Virus record (IMG/VR): IMGVR_UViG_3300025087_000291
Coordinates: 1-24,663 of that record
Source of the DNA: a virus
Length of the DNA: 24,663 nucleotides
Direction: 5' to 3' (one strand)
A model generated the notes under the pieces. That model made no database searches and had not been told where the DNA came from. It saw only the letters and a program-made list of their open reading frames with translations. The number at the start of each line of letters is the position of its first letter. Position 1 is the stretch's first letter. Of this stretch, positions 5,821 through 22,715 are shown one piece after another. Made by a program: the position numbers and the translations under genes.

Positions 5821-7088
5821 ATAATTGAGATATTAGTTATTATCGGTGTACTTGAACCGCTTGAAGTCATTGTAATTCTAGCTTGCATAAATTGACAATC
5901 CGCTAAGCCGCCGTCAAAATAAACTTTTTTGTTTATTGTGTCGATAACTGGTGTTTGCGCTACCCAACCAGCTCCATTTGTTTTAGTAGAAATACCTATC
6001 CCCTCTGGATAACTTTCATAACTAACAATTACATTATTAAAACTTCCTTGAACTTGCGGAGTGTCTATTGCCCCCGTAGCTCTGTTAGTAGCGTGTCTTA
6101 AATTCACGCCATCAGAAATAGACACTATCAGATTATTATTCTGAACATCTATCGAAGTAATCGTATCGGTAGCTGTGTATTGTTGAACTACTGCTCTTGG
6201 TTGACCTGCAACCTTTCTGTGAATAGTATAAATTTTAGTTCCAACAGCTAAAAGTGGTCTTCCATTCAATACTACTGATTTTTGCCATCCGATTGCTGTC
6301 GTTTCATCTCTTAATTCCTTTTCAAATAAACTAAACTGTCCACCTGACCACTGATAAAGTCTGCCATTTGTTCCACATTGAGCCAGTATATATTCATCTG
6401 TGTTTATAAAACAGTTTATTCCATTTTCTTGCAATTCATTTGAAAGAGAAAATGAATCTGAATAAGTATCCCAAATAAAAGCTCGGCATTGTTTAACAGT
6501 AGTAGAAACTATTGTGCCGATTAAAATATTTGTATATTTATCTGGAATAATACATCTACCTATAAATTGAGCTGGTATATCTAAAGCATTAGCAGTGAAT
6601 GTTAGGGAAGAATTTACAGATGCGACATATTTCCCATCCGTAATAAATAAGGTTAAATTTTCTTCGCAAGCAGCATAGGCTTTTGAATTGGAAAAAGTGC
6701 CGTGTACATCATCAATACTAGCTTCTGTATCTTCATCAAAATGCCCGAGTTTAGAAGCTGTCCAATACCATATTTTTCCATTGTAATACTGCGCTCCATT
6801 ATGTCCTCCCGATTGAGTATTTGCAGTTATACTAGAATATTCACCAGCTGTATTTCTCTTCCATCTTTTAGTAGATGTGGTTGAAAAAAAATATTGTGTA
6901 CCAGTGGATGATGTGGTTTGAACGCAAGGTTCATCTGGTACACCTGATGTAGTGTCGGCATATAAAACCAACGGGCATTTAAGACTTCCTAATTCGGTAT
7001 GTGCATCACAATTAACCATACTGTCAAATCCAGTTTGGTCAAATTTTGAAACTCCTATGCCATTTATAAATTGATTATAATCAGGCAT
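5817..7088 (-). CDS. Tail protein with beta-propeller-like repeats (423 aa)
   Basis: The protein begins MPDYNQFINGIGVSKFDQTG and is almost entirely beta-strand-like. Recurrent short units of a hydrophobic strand, turn and aromatic residue follow each other: AQYYNGKIWYWTASKLGHFD, LTLFITDGKYVASVNSS, CRAFIWDTYSDSFSLSNE, GRLYQWSGGQFSLFE, RPLLAVGTKIYTIHRK and NNLIVSISDGVNLRHA. This spacing of about 40-50 residues suggests a beta-propeller. Podovirus tail nozzle proteins carry propeller domains, so a nozzle or tail-tip role is plausible. The C-terminal part (residues about 360-423) looks like a separate beta-sandwich. It lies between tailspike and fibre-like genes in the late operon, with overlaps on both sides. 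The propeller assignment is by eye and unconfirmed. Confidence 0.7.
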   Translation of the reverse strand: MPDYNQFINGIGVSKFDQTGFDSMVNCDAHTELGSLKCPLVLYADTTSGVPDEPCVQTTSSTGTQYFFSTTSTKRWKRNTAGEYSSITANTQSGGHNGAQYYNGKIWYWTASKLGHFDEDTEASIDDVHGTFSNSKAYAACEENLTLFITDGKYVASVNSSLTFTANALDIPAQFIGRCIIPDKYTNILIGTIVSTTVKQCRAFIWDTYSDSFSLSNELQENGINCFINTDEYILAQCGTNGRLYQWSGGQFSLFEKELRDETTAIGWQKSVVLNGRPLLAVGTKIYTIHRKVAGQPRAVVQQYTATDTITSIDVQNNNLIVSISDGVNLRHATNRATGAIDTPQVQGSFNNVIVSYESYPEGIGISTKTNGAGWVAQTPVIDTINKKVYFDGGLADCQFMQARITMTSSGSSTPIITNISII

Positions 7089-7215
7089 CTTTTTTTTCTT
7101 TAATTTGTGTTAAATTTTGCATCATCGCTATTAACTGAAACACTTGAGTATACTGGCAAGAAGCCAGATAATTGAGAATTAGATTTAATTGTTCTTCTGT
7201 TATTTCGTATTTCAT
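7081..7215 (-). CDS. Small hypothetical protein (44 aa)
   Basis: I place the start at the ATG at 7213-7215, just after the tailspike stop (7217-7219), in the context AAAATAATATG that most genes here share. A longer frame reading back to 7287 would sit almost wholly inside the tailspike gene and is less likely. The product starts MKYEITEEQLNLILNYLASC and continues QYTQVFQLIAMMQNLTQIKE, an amphipathic two-helix protein ending KEKKDA. It overlaps the start of the 423-aa tail gene by 8 bases. No family is recognised; a tail chaperone or small virion subunit is possible. Confidence 0.6.
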   Translation of the reverse strand: MKYEITEEQLNLILNYLASCQYTQVFQLIAMMQNLTQIKEKKDA

Positions 7216-7216
7216 A

Positions 7217-8359
7217 TTATTTTGCAACCCAGCCTGACGCATCAGTGCCAGATTCTTTAATATATAAAGTTGTTCCTGCTCCCCCATCTGTTCTTAGATA
7301 TAAAGAACCAATTAAGGCAGTCAATACTCCTTCTGGCGAACCAGAACCAAAAGTTATTTTTCTTAGGGTAGAAGTATTGTTTCCTAAATTTATATTTCCA
7401 GCAGTTGTTAGGTATAAGTCATCTAAAACTAAAACCTTTGTATCAGTAGTAGAGCCAGAATTTATATAAGAGTTATTTTTGGTTGCATCAGTATCGTCAG
7501 TTATTCCGTGATTAGAAGAAAAGACTATAAAATTGTAATCAGCAGTTGCTTCTAAGTGAACTGAACCAGCAGTATTAGTTTCTGTATAAACTCCAGAATA
7601 ATTACCATAATTTCCCGCAATACTTAAACCATATCCAGTATTATTTTGTGCCGTTAATCCAAGAACATAAATAGAAATATTATCCACATACATTCCATCT
7701 CCGCCATTCAAATTAACATCTATGTTTTCAAACACGCAGGCATTGGTATCTGCACCAGAAACATATATCCCAGTACCATCATTTGAAGCTGAAATAATAT
7801 CTCTAAAAGTGTTCAAGTTTCCGTAGGTATGATAAATTCCGTGAGAACCCTGATTGATAACCCTAATATTTTCCAGTATTCCTCTGCTTCCGTTAGTATG
7901 ATAATAAATGCCATAACTAGTATCTCCATTCACAGCCTTATTGGTATTGTCTAAAGTAATGCTAGATATTTTGGTATGGCTTATAGTGATTTCAATTCCT
8001 GTTCCATTAAAATCCTTGTCTAGTTTAGTGTTGTATCTATTTTCACCAAGAAGACTAATTCGTGCAGAAAGAGCAAGTGTGCTTGTAAATCTATATGTGC
8101 CAGCTGGAAAATAGACAGTATTTCCATTAGTAGTCGCAGCTGTAATAGCGGCGTTAATAGCCACAGTGTCATCACTTGACCCGTCTCCAGTCGCACCGTA
8201 TCTTTTAACATTTATAACATTATCGATTGCTGAAGTTAGTATCTTTTTACTGGTTCCAGCGGCGTCGTCAGTTGTATCAGAAACATCTACAATCGGAATA
8301 TAATCCCCACTGGCGGGAGTTGTTAGTTCGGTACAATCGGTTATTTTTTTATCGCTCAT
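7217..8359 (-). CDS. Tailspike with pectate-lyase-like beta-helix (380 aa)
   Basis: Three parts are visible. Residues 1-45 (KITDCTELTTPASGDYIPIV) match the short virion-anchoring module found at the start of many environmental phage spikes. Residues about 49-310 begin VINVKRYGATGDGSSDDTVA, the hallmark entry of the pectate lyase 3 type right-handed beta-helix, followed by NGNTVYFPAGTYRF and many short turns with Asn/Gly (GIYHTYGNLNTFRDI, NGGDGMYVDNISIY). Residues about 338-380 (GSPEGVLTALIGSLYLRTDG, ending SGTDASGWVAK) match a small C-terminal module common in tail spikes. Such proteins bind and often cleave surface polysaccharides at the cell envelope. Catalytic residues cannot be assigned by eye. 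It is 3 bases from the upstream fibre gene. Confidence 0.85.
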   Translation of the reverse strand: MSDKKITDCTELTTPASGDYIPIVDVSDTTDDAAGTSKKILTSAIDNVINVKRYGATGDGSSDDTVAINAAITAATTNGNTVYFPAGTYRFTSTLALSARISLLGENRYNTKLDKDFNGTGIEITISHTKISSITLDNTNKAVNGDTSYGIYYHTNGSRGILENIRVINQGSHGIYHTYGNLNTFRDIISASNDGTGIYVSGADTNACVFENIDVNLNGGDGMYVDNISIYVLGLTAQNNTGYGLSIAGNYGNYSGVYTETNTAGSVHLEATADYNFIVFSSNHGITDDTDATKNNSYINSGSTTDTKVLVLDDLYLTTAGNINLGNNTSTLRKITFGSGSPEGVLTALIGSLYLRTDGGAGTTLYIKESGTDASGWVAK

Positions 8360-20835: not shown

Positions 20836-21867
20836 TTATAAATCTAATCTACTTAAATCTGTATAATTTTTATTATCGTAAATTGTTGGCACGCCTATTT
20901 TCCAAGAAAGTTCGTCGGTATATTTTCCAGTCATTGGGTCAAACCTTACATCAATTTTACCCTCTCCCCCCATATCCCTTGTTTTAGAAATAATGAATTG
21001 TGTTTTGTATCTTTCTTCTTCCGCAATTCCGTCTTCTCTGTTTCTCCAAATATTTATAACTGTTGAGGAGTTTTGCACAATCGAAATACTATCTTTGAAA
21101 CTATCCAGCGTTGGTCTGTTGCCGTTTAGTTTTCTATAATGGGCGACAATCACGATTGATACATTTAATCTTCTGGCTAACGCTCCCAATCTAACCATAA
21201 CATCTTCAATAAAATCTGCTTTTGAATTTTTTCCTGAAATCAAATCAAAGGAATGCAGATGGTCAATCAAAAATAATTTAACCCCGTCCATAACCGATAA
21301 CATTTCAATTCTTTTTTCTACAAGGTCGATTGTTATTCGTTTGTCTATTTTTTGGAAATAAGGATATTTTCTTTCCTTAAAATTTTCATAAGCCTTGGCG
21401 ACATAATCTAAAAATTGTGGTTGTTGATTTAATTCTCCCCTAACATAAGCATTCCAAGGATATTGTTTTTTACCTTCCATTCCTCGTATCTTTCCTATTT
21501 CAAAATAAATTGCTTTCTTTCCATAATCTTCTAAGCGTTCTTCTAAGGCAAATACTGCGGTTGGTTTTTTACAATTATAAACCAGTGATATTGAAAATGT
21601 TGATTTTCCAGTTCCGCTTTCTCCACCAATAAGAATTATTTGTCCAGGAAAAATTCCTGATAGCTTATTGTCTAGCCAATCATAGCCATAACTTATGATG
21701 TCATCTGGATTAGTAGTTTCAATTTCCTTAAATGCTCTTTTAAAAACTTCTTTTGTTTCAACTGATTCAATATTTAAAGCATCACCGAAGTTATTATCGA
21801 AATCTATTTTTTCTTTTTGCTTTTGTATATACCAGCTATCAGTTCCAATTTTGTTTTTGTTTTCCAT
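20836..21867 (-). CDS. DnaB-like replicative helicase / RecA-fold ATPase (343 aa)
   Basis: The central RecA-like ATPase is clear. Residues 57-74 (IISYGYDWLDNKLSGIFPGQ) match the entry of DnaB-type helicase cores, and Walker A lies at 81-90 (GGESGTGKST). FALEER (106-111) is the helicase motif with its Glu, followed by Walker B LFLIDHLH (198-205) and the sensor-type IVAHYRK (240-246). KDSISIVQNSSTVINIWRNR near 258-277 resembles the DnaB C-terminal motif. At 343 residues it lacks the long DnaB N-terminal domain, so it is a shortened phage form. It would unwind or load at the phage replication fork, and it follows directly after the initiator-like gene. The start is AATAATATGGAAAAC. Confidence 0.88.
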   Translation of the reverse strand: MENKNKIGTDSWYIQKQKEKIDFDNNFGDALNIESVETKEVFKRAFKEIETTNPDDIISYGYDWLDNKLSGIFPGQIILIGGESGTGKSTFSISLVYNCKKPTAVFALEERLEDYGKKAIYFEIGKIRGMEGKKQYPWNAYVRGELNQQPQFLDYVAKAYENFKERKYPYFQKIDKRITIDLVEKRIEMLSVMDGVKLFLIDHLHSFDLISGKNSKADFIEDVMVRLGALARRLNVSIVIVAHYRKLNGNRPTLDSFKDSISIVQNSSTVINIWRNREDGIAEEERYKTQFIISKTRDMGGEGKIDVRFDPMTGKYTDELSWKIGVPTIYDNKNYTDLSRLDL

Positions 21868-21868
21868 A

Positions 21869-22567
21869 TTATTTATTTAGATATTTTAAAATTGTTTCGA
21901 GTGTCCATTGATTAGTCATTTTATTAGCTTCCACTAATGCCTTTTTTCTTCTTTCTGGCGGATAGTCTTTTAGGAGTGTGGCTACTTTCATATTTCTCCT
22001 AAGTTCTGCTTCAGCGGTCTTTTTAGTTGGAAAGTCCATTTTCTTAATTTTCATATAATTCCCTATAAGGTGGATGTGGTCTTGCTTATCGGCGCAACAC
22101 TTGTTAATCCATTCACTACTAACAAAAGGAACATCTGTGGCTTTAGCCACAATAGTATTCTTAGTGCTTACTAATGCTTTATCATTATTGTTTGTTTCTT
22201 TTAGAGTTTCATTTGAGTTATCATTTGAATTCTTTTTGAGTTTAACCTCTTGATAATCTTCCCAATTTAATATAGTGATAATGGTGTATTTGTTAGTTTT
22301 TTTGAGTTTAACCATTCCTTCACTCTCTAAAAAATTGACCCAATAATGGATAGTAGAAACTGCTAAATTCAATTCTTCTTTTGATTTATTAAGTCCCATA
22401 ACAAATTGTCCCTTGTTAATTGTTATTTTATTTCTCCCCAATAAAAATGTTTTATCTTGATGGTTTGCTCTTAACAAACACCATATCCATATTTTCAAAC
22501 ATTTTTCGTTTCCAAAAACTAAACTACTAAGTGTTTTCCTCCAAAGGCATACATATCCTCTTTTCAT
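21869..22567 (-). CDS. Replication initiator-like HTH protein, DnaD-type (232 aa)
   Basis: The start at the ATG at 22565-22567 is preferred because a TTG at 22612 would place the frame inside the leader hairpin. The N-terminus KRGYVCLWRKTLSSLVFGNE and KCLKIWIWCLLRANHQDKTF match phage DnaD/replisome-organiser domains. A winged helix follows at about 52-100 (GQFVMGLNKSKEELNLAVST, IHYWVNFLESEGMVKLKKTN, KYTIITILNWEDYQEV). An Asn/Lys-rich linker (110-135) leads to a helical C-terminal domain with TKKTAEAELRRNMKVATLLK and KALVEANKMTNQWTLETILK. Such proteins bind the phage origin and help load the helicase, which is the next gene (1 base apart). Regulation by the leader described next is expected. 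Confidence 0.8.
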   Translation of the reverse strand: MKRGYVCLWRKTLSSLVFGNEKCLKIWIWCLLRANHQDKTFLLGRNKITINKGQFVMGLNKSKEELNLAVSTIHYWVNFLESEGMVKLKKTNKYTIITILNWEDYQEVKLKKNSNDNSNETLKETNNNDKALVSTKNTIVAKATDVPFVSSEWINKCCADKQDHIHLIGNYMKIKKMDFPTKKTAEAELRRNMKVATLLKDYPPERRKKALVEANKMTNQWTLETILKYLNK

Positions 22568-22674
22568 AAAATTACGACCAAAAAAGCGTATACCACATCG
22601 GCGAAGATGCAAACGGTATACGCTTTGTTGGCAATAAGTTTTATTGAATTGTCGCCGATGTTTATAGTTTGCAT
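22564..22674 (-). CDS. Leader peptide ORF through the attenuator (36 aa)
   Basis: An ATG at 22672-22674, in the context TATCAATATG that is shared by many real starts here, opens a 36-codon frame ending TGA at 22564-22566. The stop overlaps the initiator ATG as ATGA. The frame reads through both arms of the terminator and its U-tract. The product starts MQTINIGDNSIKLIANKAY, ends with a hydrophobic stretch (YAFLVVIL), and would probably be unstable or membrane-seeking. I interpret it as a regulatory peptide or a translation track that melts the terminator, not as a classical enzyme. Whether it is translated is unproven. Confidence 0.5.
   Translation of the reverse strand: MQTINIGDNSIKLIANKAYTVCIFADVVYAFLVVIL
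22583..22626 (-). terminator. Attenuator terminator in the replication leader
   Basis: Minus-strand AAAGCGTATACC (plus 22615-22626) and GGTATACGCTTT (plus 22583-22594) pair perfectly over 12 bp around a 20-base loop; six T end at plus 22580. This is a strong intrinsic terminator only 13 bases before the initiator start. The loop halves GTTTGCAT (plus 22607-22614) and TCGCCGATGT (plus 22595-22604) are complementary to upstream leader segments at 22667-22674 and 22652-22661. Confidence 0.8.
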
Positions 22675-22686
22675 ATTGATATTCCT

Positions 22687-22715
22687 ATTGTATATTATTT
22701 TTAGCTTTTTGTCAA
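22687..22715 (-). promoter_or_regulatory. Sigma70 promoter of the replication operon
   Basis: TTGACA (plus 22710-22715) and TACAAT (plus 22687-22692) on the minus strand are 17 bases apart. The -35 box overlaps the stop codon of the 59-aa gene. It would start transcription near 22680 and drive the leader with the attenuator. Confidence 0.8.

Follow-up and report, generated by a model that had tools for sequence, protein, structure and literature searches.

A helicase-loader gene encoding a DnaD-like protein is preceded by a leader that is very probably a real switch, an RNA of about 100 bases with two competing folds that would set the amount of replication protein. We base this on other phages, in which the letters of the paired segments differ and the pairings are preserved. 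The leader lies in the window, a 24,663-base stretch that is the whole of a virus record and possibly a fragment of a phage genome. Its elements recur before loader genes of other phages, covary there and follow a predicted order of folding. Our best reading is that they form a family of two-state leader RNAs, without a match in Rfam, that controls phage replication genes. That the window leader is a two-state RNA acting as both an attenuator and a translational lock for its loader gene is a reading we favour with some reserve. For phages outside the model systems, little is known about the control of the dose and timing of replication proteins; a conserved architecture with freely varying pairing letters before far-apart loader genes would amount to a shared replication control device.

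The replication genes of the window are on the minus strand, the loader gene being followed by a DnaB-type helicase gene, and their features are collected with those of the leader in Table 1. All elements reported by a first-pass annotation of this DNA (promoter, 36-codon ORF, 12-bp stem, two-segment loop, U-tract and ATGA overlap) were found where it had placed them. Its hairpin at 22583-22626 contains the perfect 12-bp stem, but its extent had been underestimated, the predicted pairing being longer (22648-22563). The 20-nt loop (22614-22595) consists of GTTTGCAT (A'), CT and TCGCCGATGT (B'), and the argument that both loop-leader pairs keep the same order, and so cannot form one continuous duplex, is correct for the window. 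Promoter sites of the quality found here (11/12) number five in the window versus 1.05 in shuffles, and the transcript is predicted to start near 22680, about 6 nt before the first AUG. It is unlikely that an AGGA ahead of the leader ORF serves as a Shine-Dalgarno site, since transcription would start near 22680 and the genes of this phage generally lack such sites. Window-wide, gene starts are mostly without Shine-Dalgarno sites and have A-rich sequence before them; high-quality sigma-70-like promoters are nonetheless present. The loader start codon (ATG at 22567-22565, minus strand) sits in a T-rich context, unlike other starts in this phage. Four-base overlaps of the ATGA type are its commonest junction, and the nine between minus-strand genes suggest widespread translational coupling. 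Two further window genes (7081-7287 and 7217-8359), on the same strand and in different frames, overlap by 71 nt.

Table 1. Features of the replication leader and adjoining genes in the window.
Feature	Position	Strand	Sequence or evidence
DnaD-like helicase loader, gene that the leader would control	21869..22567	-	phrog_2514, E = 2.4e-30
DnaB-type helicase, next gene after the loader	20836..21867	-	PF03796, 5.6e-22
Sigma-70-like promoter TTGACA-17-TACAAT	22687..22715	-	TTGACA 22715-22710, 17-nt spacer, TACAAT 22692-22687; match 11/12
Segment A, RNA 5' end, includes ORF start codon	22667..22674	-	ATGCAAAC; complementary to A' at 8/8 positions; a two-sided change in L191 preserves the pairing
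Segment B	22652..22661	-	ACATCGGCGA; 10/10 complementary to B'; in L191, 7/10 pairs altered on both sides
Stem 5' arm (S5')	22615..22626	-	AAAGCGTATACC; 12/12 with S3', perfect
Loop segment A'	22607..22614	-	GTTTGCAT; complementary to A
Loop segment B'	22595..22604	-	TCGCCGATGT; complementary to B
Stem 3' arm (S3')	22583..22594	-	GGTATACGCTTT; versus L191, 6 two-sided changes, 0 breaks
U-tract TTTTTT, then GG	22580..22585	-	sequence; U5-U6 tract and G near loader start recur in relatives
Leader ORF, 36 codons plus stop codon	22564..22674	-	codons 22674-22567, TGA 22566-22564, ATGA overlap with loader gene
Extended terminator/sequestering hairpin, encloses U-tract and loader AUG	22563..22648	-	predicted fold, -34.0 kcal/mol

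The complementarity between loop and leader in the window is not due to chance. Only 5e-5 of shuffled leaders matched its two-segment sum, and none of the 4,411 50-nt window pieces tested equalled the real leader in pairing with the loop. Among 76 hairpins from 18 phage sequences, the window hairpin also had the longest complement between a loop and its upstream sequence. The 143-nt piece holding the extended hairpin gave a z of -4.1, with equally stable folds in 0/200 shuffles, and an ATG ORF of this length in that frame has a chance of about 1.3%. The motif TCGGCGA was considered as an iteron and rejected; its window-wide excess (44 vs 23) is spread over the whole window, and segment B differs in relatives.

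Relatives came from scans with alignments of the N-terminal part of the loader, and many of the loaders found belong to environmental phages. Leaders were then selected for a stem plus U-tract by an explicit stem search with criteria independent of complementarity; it replaced a minimum-energy hairpin finder, which had missed the window, L075 and L191. A stem and U-tract directly before the gene was found in 14 of the 87 distinct DnaD-type leaders. Exact pattern scans with the loop and stem gave no match, nor did tblastn with the 36-aa leader peptide. A search for relatives of the DnaB helicase found none, and terminase-related phages (L010-L018) contained no match to the window loader or helicase. 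A first scan of bacterial genomes yielded no loader relatives, and a second yielded distant loaders only, with ordinary leaders. Patescibacteria were tried as a source of relatives and dropped, as 380 genomes gave no loader match except in the seed genome. No Rfam family matched the leader at gathering score, and no published description of it was found in the literature searched, whose coverage was incomplete.

Some further features near loader genes were noticed. At L001 2056-2236, and at homologous positions in L002-L007, the leader of a related loader gene, without an Rfam match, has two hairpins in tandem; their loops (GATGCAACTG) hardly vary, and their stems differ between copies with compensating changes. 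A third hairpin there has a GTGGTTA loop complementary to TAACCAC just upstream. An int-alpA RNA match (RF02996), barely above gathering score, lies at L192 600-665, about 0.8 kb before the loader gene. L034 has a different loader leader, with a 22-codon cysteine-rich ORF (MSECCDAIIIKGGHCGSCHEPC) directly before the loader gene at 2998.

A MAFFT alignment of members with several hairpins was unusable as a structural alignment, and pairing was therefore tested by comparing each leader with itself and with the others. Across the 14 leaders, the longest match between 5' segment and apical region was 7.2 in self pairing versus 4.65 in cross pairing, and the two-segment sum averaged 11.6 versus 3.1. 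The permutation p value (~1e-5) was unchanged when the window and L191 were left out. A Fisher-combined shuffle control gave 8e-13, and a control with pieces of the same contig gave 1.4e-12. The closest relative, L191, has a loader about 60% identical over 108 columns and a clearly homologous leader. In a comparison with the window, none of the 30 pairs in A, B and the upper stem is broken, and 14 of them carry compensatory changes on both sides; when B of one phage is set against B' of the other, only 3/10 positions pair. Likewise, L141 pairs TAACTAC with GTAGTTA and L197 pairs TTACTAC with GTAGTAA. The covariation among related phages that the first-pass annotation had named as a test of its proposal is thus present, and the loop-leader pairing it described is real and maintained in the leader of a replication gene.

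Pairing of the loop with the ORF start codon, which had also been proposed, proved less general. It is present in L191, L075, L144, L169 and L192, partly so in L141, L073 and L062, and absent in L197 and L215, which makes the transcript's 5' end, not the start codon, the more general pairing partner. The window, L191, L075 and L215 have the segment order A B A' B' and apical loops of 20-38 nt. A larger apical part with small hairpins is found in L062, L073, L141, L144 and L197, whose order, in those with two scored leader segments, is A B B' A'; the second segment of L144 (TCTGAC/GTCAGA) was read from the sequence, not scored. L169, L188 and L192 have one complementary segment only, and L204 and L042 have no significant loop-leader complementarity. 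On the loader tree, members cluster in the window clade and also occur elsewhere (12 members, 9 label changes; as low in 9/500 shuffles). As members also sit outside that clade, loaders may have exchanged the leader, or it may have more than one origin. At L062 1361-1503 and L144 1352-1494, the leader flanks are alike and the loaders only 37% identical, and exchange of the RNA element as a module is possible.

We next considered the order of folding, using minimum-energy folds of growing transcripts for 11 leaders under a nearest-neighbour model that ignores kinetics and pseudoknots. When the RNA stops at the apical region, its 5' end is paired to that region; with the 3' arm added, the long hairpin displaces this pairing. 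At least one leader-apical helix appeared in the early minimum-energy fold and was gone once the 3' arm was made in 11 of the 11 leaders. In the window, A-A' is predicted to form first and B-B' second, followed by the stem, and A and B are single-stranded in the final predicted fold. The leader thus has features expected of an attenuator, a promoter followed by a stem and U-tract upstream of a gene, together with an earlier, exclusive alternative fold predicted in all 11. On this basis, the RNA would begin about 6 nt ahead of the first AUG, and state 1 would form first, A and B pairing with the emerging A' and B' so that the 5' arm of the stem is held from its partner. State 2, the last and most stable, would arise when hairpin S closes, presenting a terminator-like stem with its U-tract, burying the loader start codon and releasing A and B. 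Output would be set by the state met by RNA polymerase at the U-tract and by ribosomes at the loader start; one input, in most members, is probably a ribosome on the short ORF from the 5' AUG. We infer termination, antitermination by state 1, coupling to translation, the direction of control and the signal. Several features count against a two-state attenuator: the U-tract lies within the extended stem, the loop is large for a terminator, and some leaders have a single complementary segment (L169, L188, L192) or no significant complementarity (L204, L042). Furthermore, A' and B' share no bases with S, so in the members with long linkers (window, L191, L075) loop pairing and S could partly coexist as a pseudoknot, which would weaken the either/or view.

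How far translation drives such a device bears on the proposal that the terminator is melted by a ribosome on the leader ORF, which then reinitiates at the ATGA of the loader gene, loop pairing to the ORF start codon switching off both ORF and loader. The first AUG closely follows the -10 box in most members, several of these promoter matches being weak, and the leader RNAs would consequently be nearly leaderless. In 8/10 AUG-bearing members the AUG frame stays open beyond the apical region, versus 5/20 other frames (p = 0.006), and ORFs of 26-45 codons occur in 8 members. Segment A on or beside the AUG in most members, the ATGA junction so common in this phage, and a loader start of unusual T-rich context inside the hairpin all agree with ribosome-driven melting. 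However, the ORFs of L144 and L192 have 7 and 3 codons, L197 has none, and no conservation was seen when leader peptides were compared among members; the ORFs of L062, L073 and L191 end inside the 3' arm, short of the U-tract. Moreover, melting by a leading ribosome cannot be assumed, because in E. coli a terminator can still work efficiently when it lies no more than 100 bp into a coding region (PMC4824070). We consider ribosome-driven melting, one of the two main rivals of our reading, improbable. Because the peptides are unconserved and three members (L144, L192, L197) have no such ORF, translation is likely an input to the two-state device, not its core. A -1 frameshift at T TTT TTG from the ORF into the loader was also considered and rejected, the frame relation differing among members (frame +1 in L075, frame 0 in L073) and not being conserved.

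The pairing might instead operate between molecules, the terminated leader RNA acting in trans so that its loop pairs with the 5' ends of other leaders and keeps them terminated or untranslated. By analogy with plasmid copy-control RNAs and the P4 CI RNA, this could provide feedback by genome number or superinfection exclusion. In L062, L073, L141 and L197, only about 0-4 nt separate segment B from the foot of a stem longer than 20 bp, and on geometric grounds a leader's own loop would hardly be reachable once S had closed. That A and B are single-stranded in the final predicted fold is consistent with action in trans, as is the hypervariability of the pairing sequences, which is expected of specificity determinants. 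Nevertheless, a cis helix accounts for the same data, and lysogenic immunity is not indicated, since a tyrosine integrase match occurs in only 1 of 10 records and a large serine recombinase match in 0 of 10, in records that may be fragments. We consider action in trans, the other main rival, improbable. Equally improbable, in our view, is a broader reading, a widespread and previously undescribed family of phage leaders with hypervariable pairing segments, whose apical loop is antisense to their own 5' end and whose short terminated RNA could also act in trans. If it acted in trans, such a leader would resemble plasmid copy-control RNAs but come from the same strand, and it could have a copy-number or incompatibility role for phage replication genes. 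At the DNA level, replication initiators often act near their own genes, and the inverted repeats A/A', B/B' and S/S' might serve before the loader gene as a replication origin or as protein-binding sites. This is very improbable given that promoter, U-tract and ORF keep a fixed orientation among relatives, that in 10/11 leaders the sense strand gives the more stable fold (35 G-U pairs against 5 A-C mismatches), and that the letters of A and B vary among relatives, which sites fixed by a binding protein would not do. It is scarcely credible that the terminator is an ordinary one and the complementarity a matter of chance; ordinary terminators do stand near some loader genes (L204, L042), but the self-versus-cross difference (p ~1e-5), the covariation with L191 and a promoter that fires straight into the stem all argue against it.

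The two-state leader can be compared with several known systems. Like it, the pT181 countertranscript attenuator places transcription attenuation ahead of a replication gene, but it requires an antisense promoter. An antisense RNA of this type, raised as an alternative by the first-pass annotation, is not borne out in the window, as no promoter-like site was found on the plus strand at 22347-22668 and the sense fold was the more stable in all but one of the 11 members. Further examples are the rep leaders of IncI, IncB and IncFII plasmids, on which papers are cited in PMC10724649. They combine a leader peptide, loop structures and alternative pairing. In these systems, including ColIb-P9 repZ with its repY pseudoknot and R1 repA, the mRNA of a replication initiator carries a leader; unlike the window leader, whose loop pairs with the 5' end and for which no opposite-strand RNA is indicated, they are regulated by an antisense RNA from the opposite strand. 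The IsrK/orf45/anrP leader of the Gifsy-1 prophage likewise yields a short terminated RNA and a read-through mRNA from one promoter, has two alternative structures, and contains a small upstream ORF whose translation is coupled to that of the following gene (PMC4825925). There, however, the ORF follows the terminator, the short IsrK activates in trans, and an antirepressor and antiterminator are controlled rather than a helicase loader; no sequence relation was seen. In the c4 antisense RNA of P1/P7, segments in the loops can pair with sites that surround a ribosome binding site (PMC12197685), but its target is the antirepressor (ant) mRNA in lysogens, and the window leader has no Rfam match. 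In the P4 CI RNA (seqA/seqB/seqC), and also in phi-R73, replication genes are turned off by premature termination in the leader, brought about when an RNA segment pairs with complementary leader segments (as summarised in PMC4825925; related list in PMC7567579). CI differs in being processed and trans-acting, whereas the window leader carries a terminator-like stem within the element and integrases are mostly absent. The arrangement that marks P4 CI and c4, loop segments complementary to leader segments, is found in the window leader and in its relatives.
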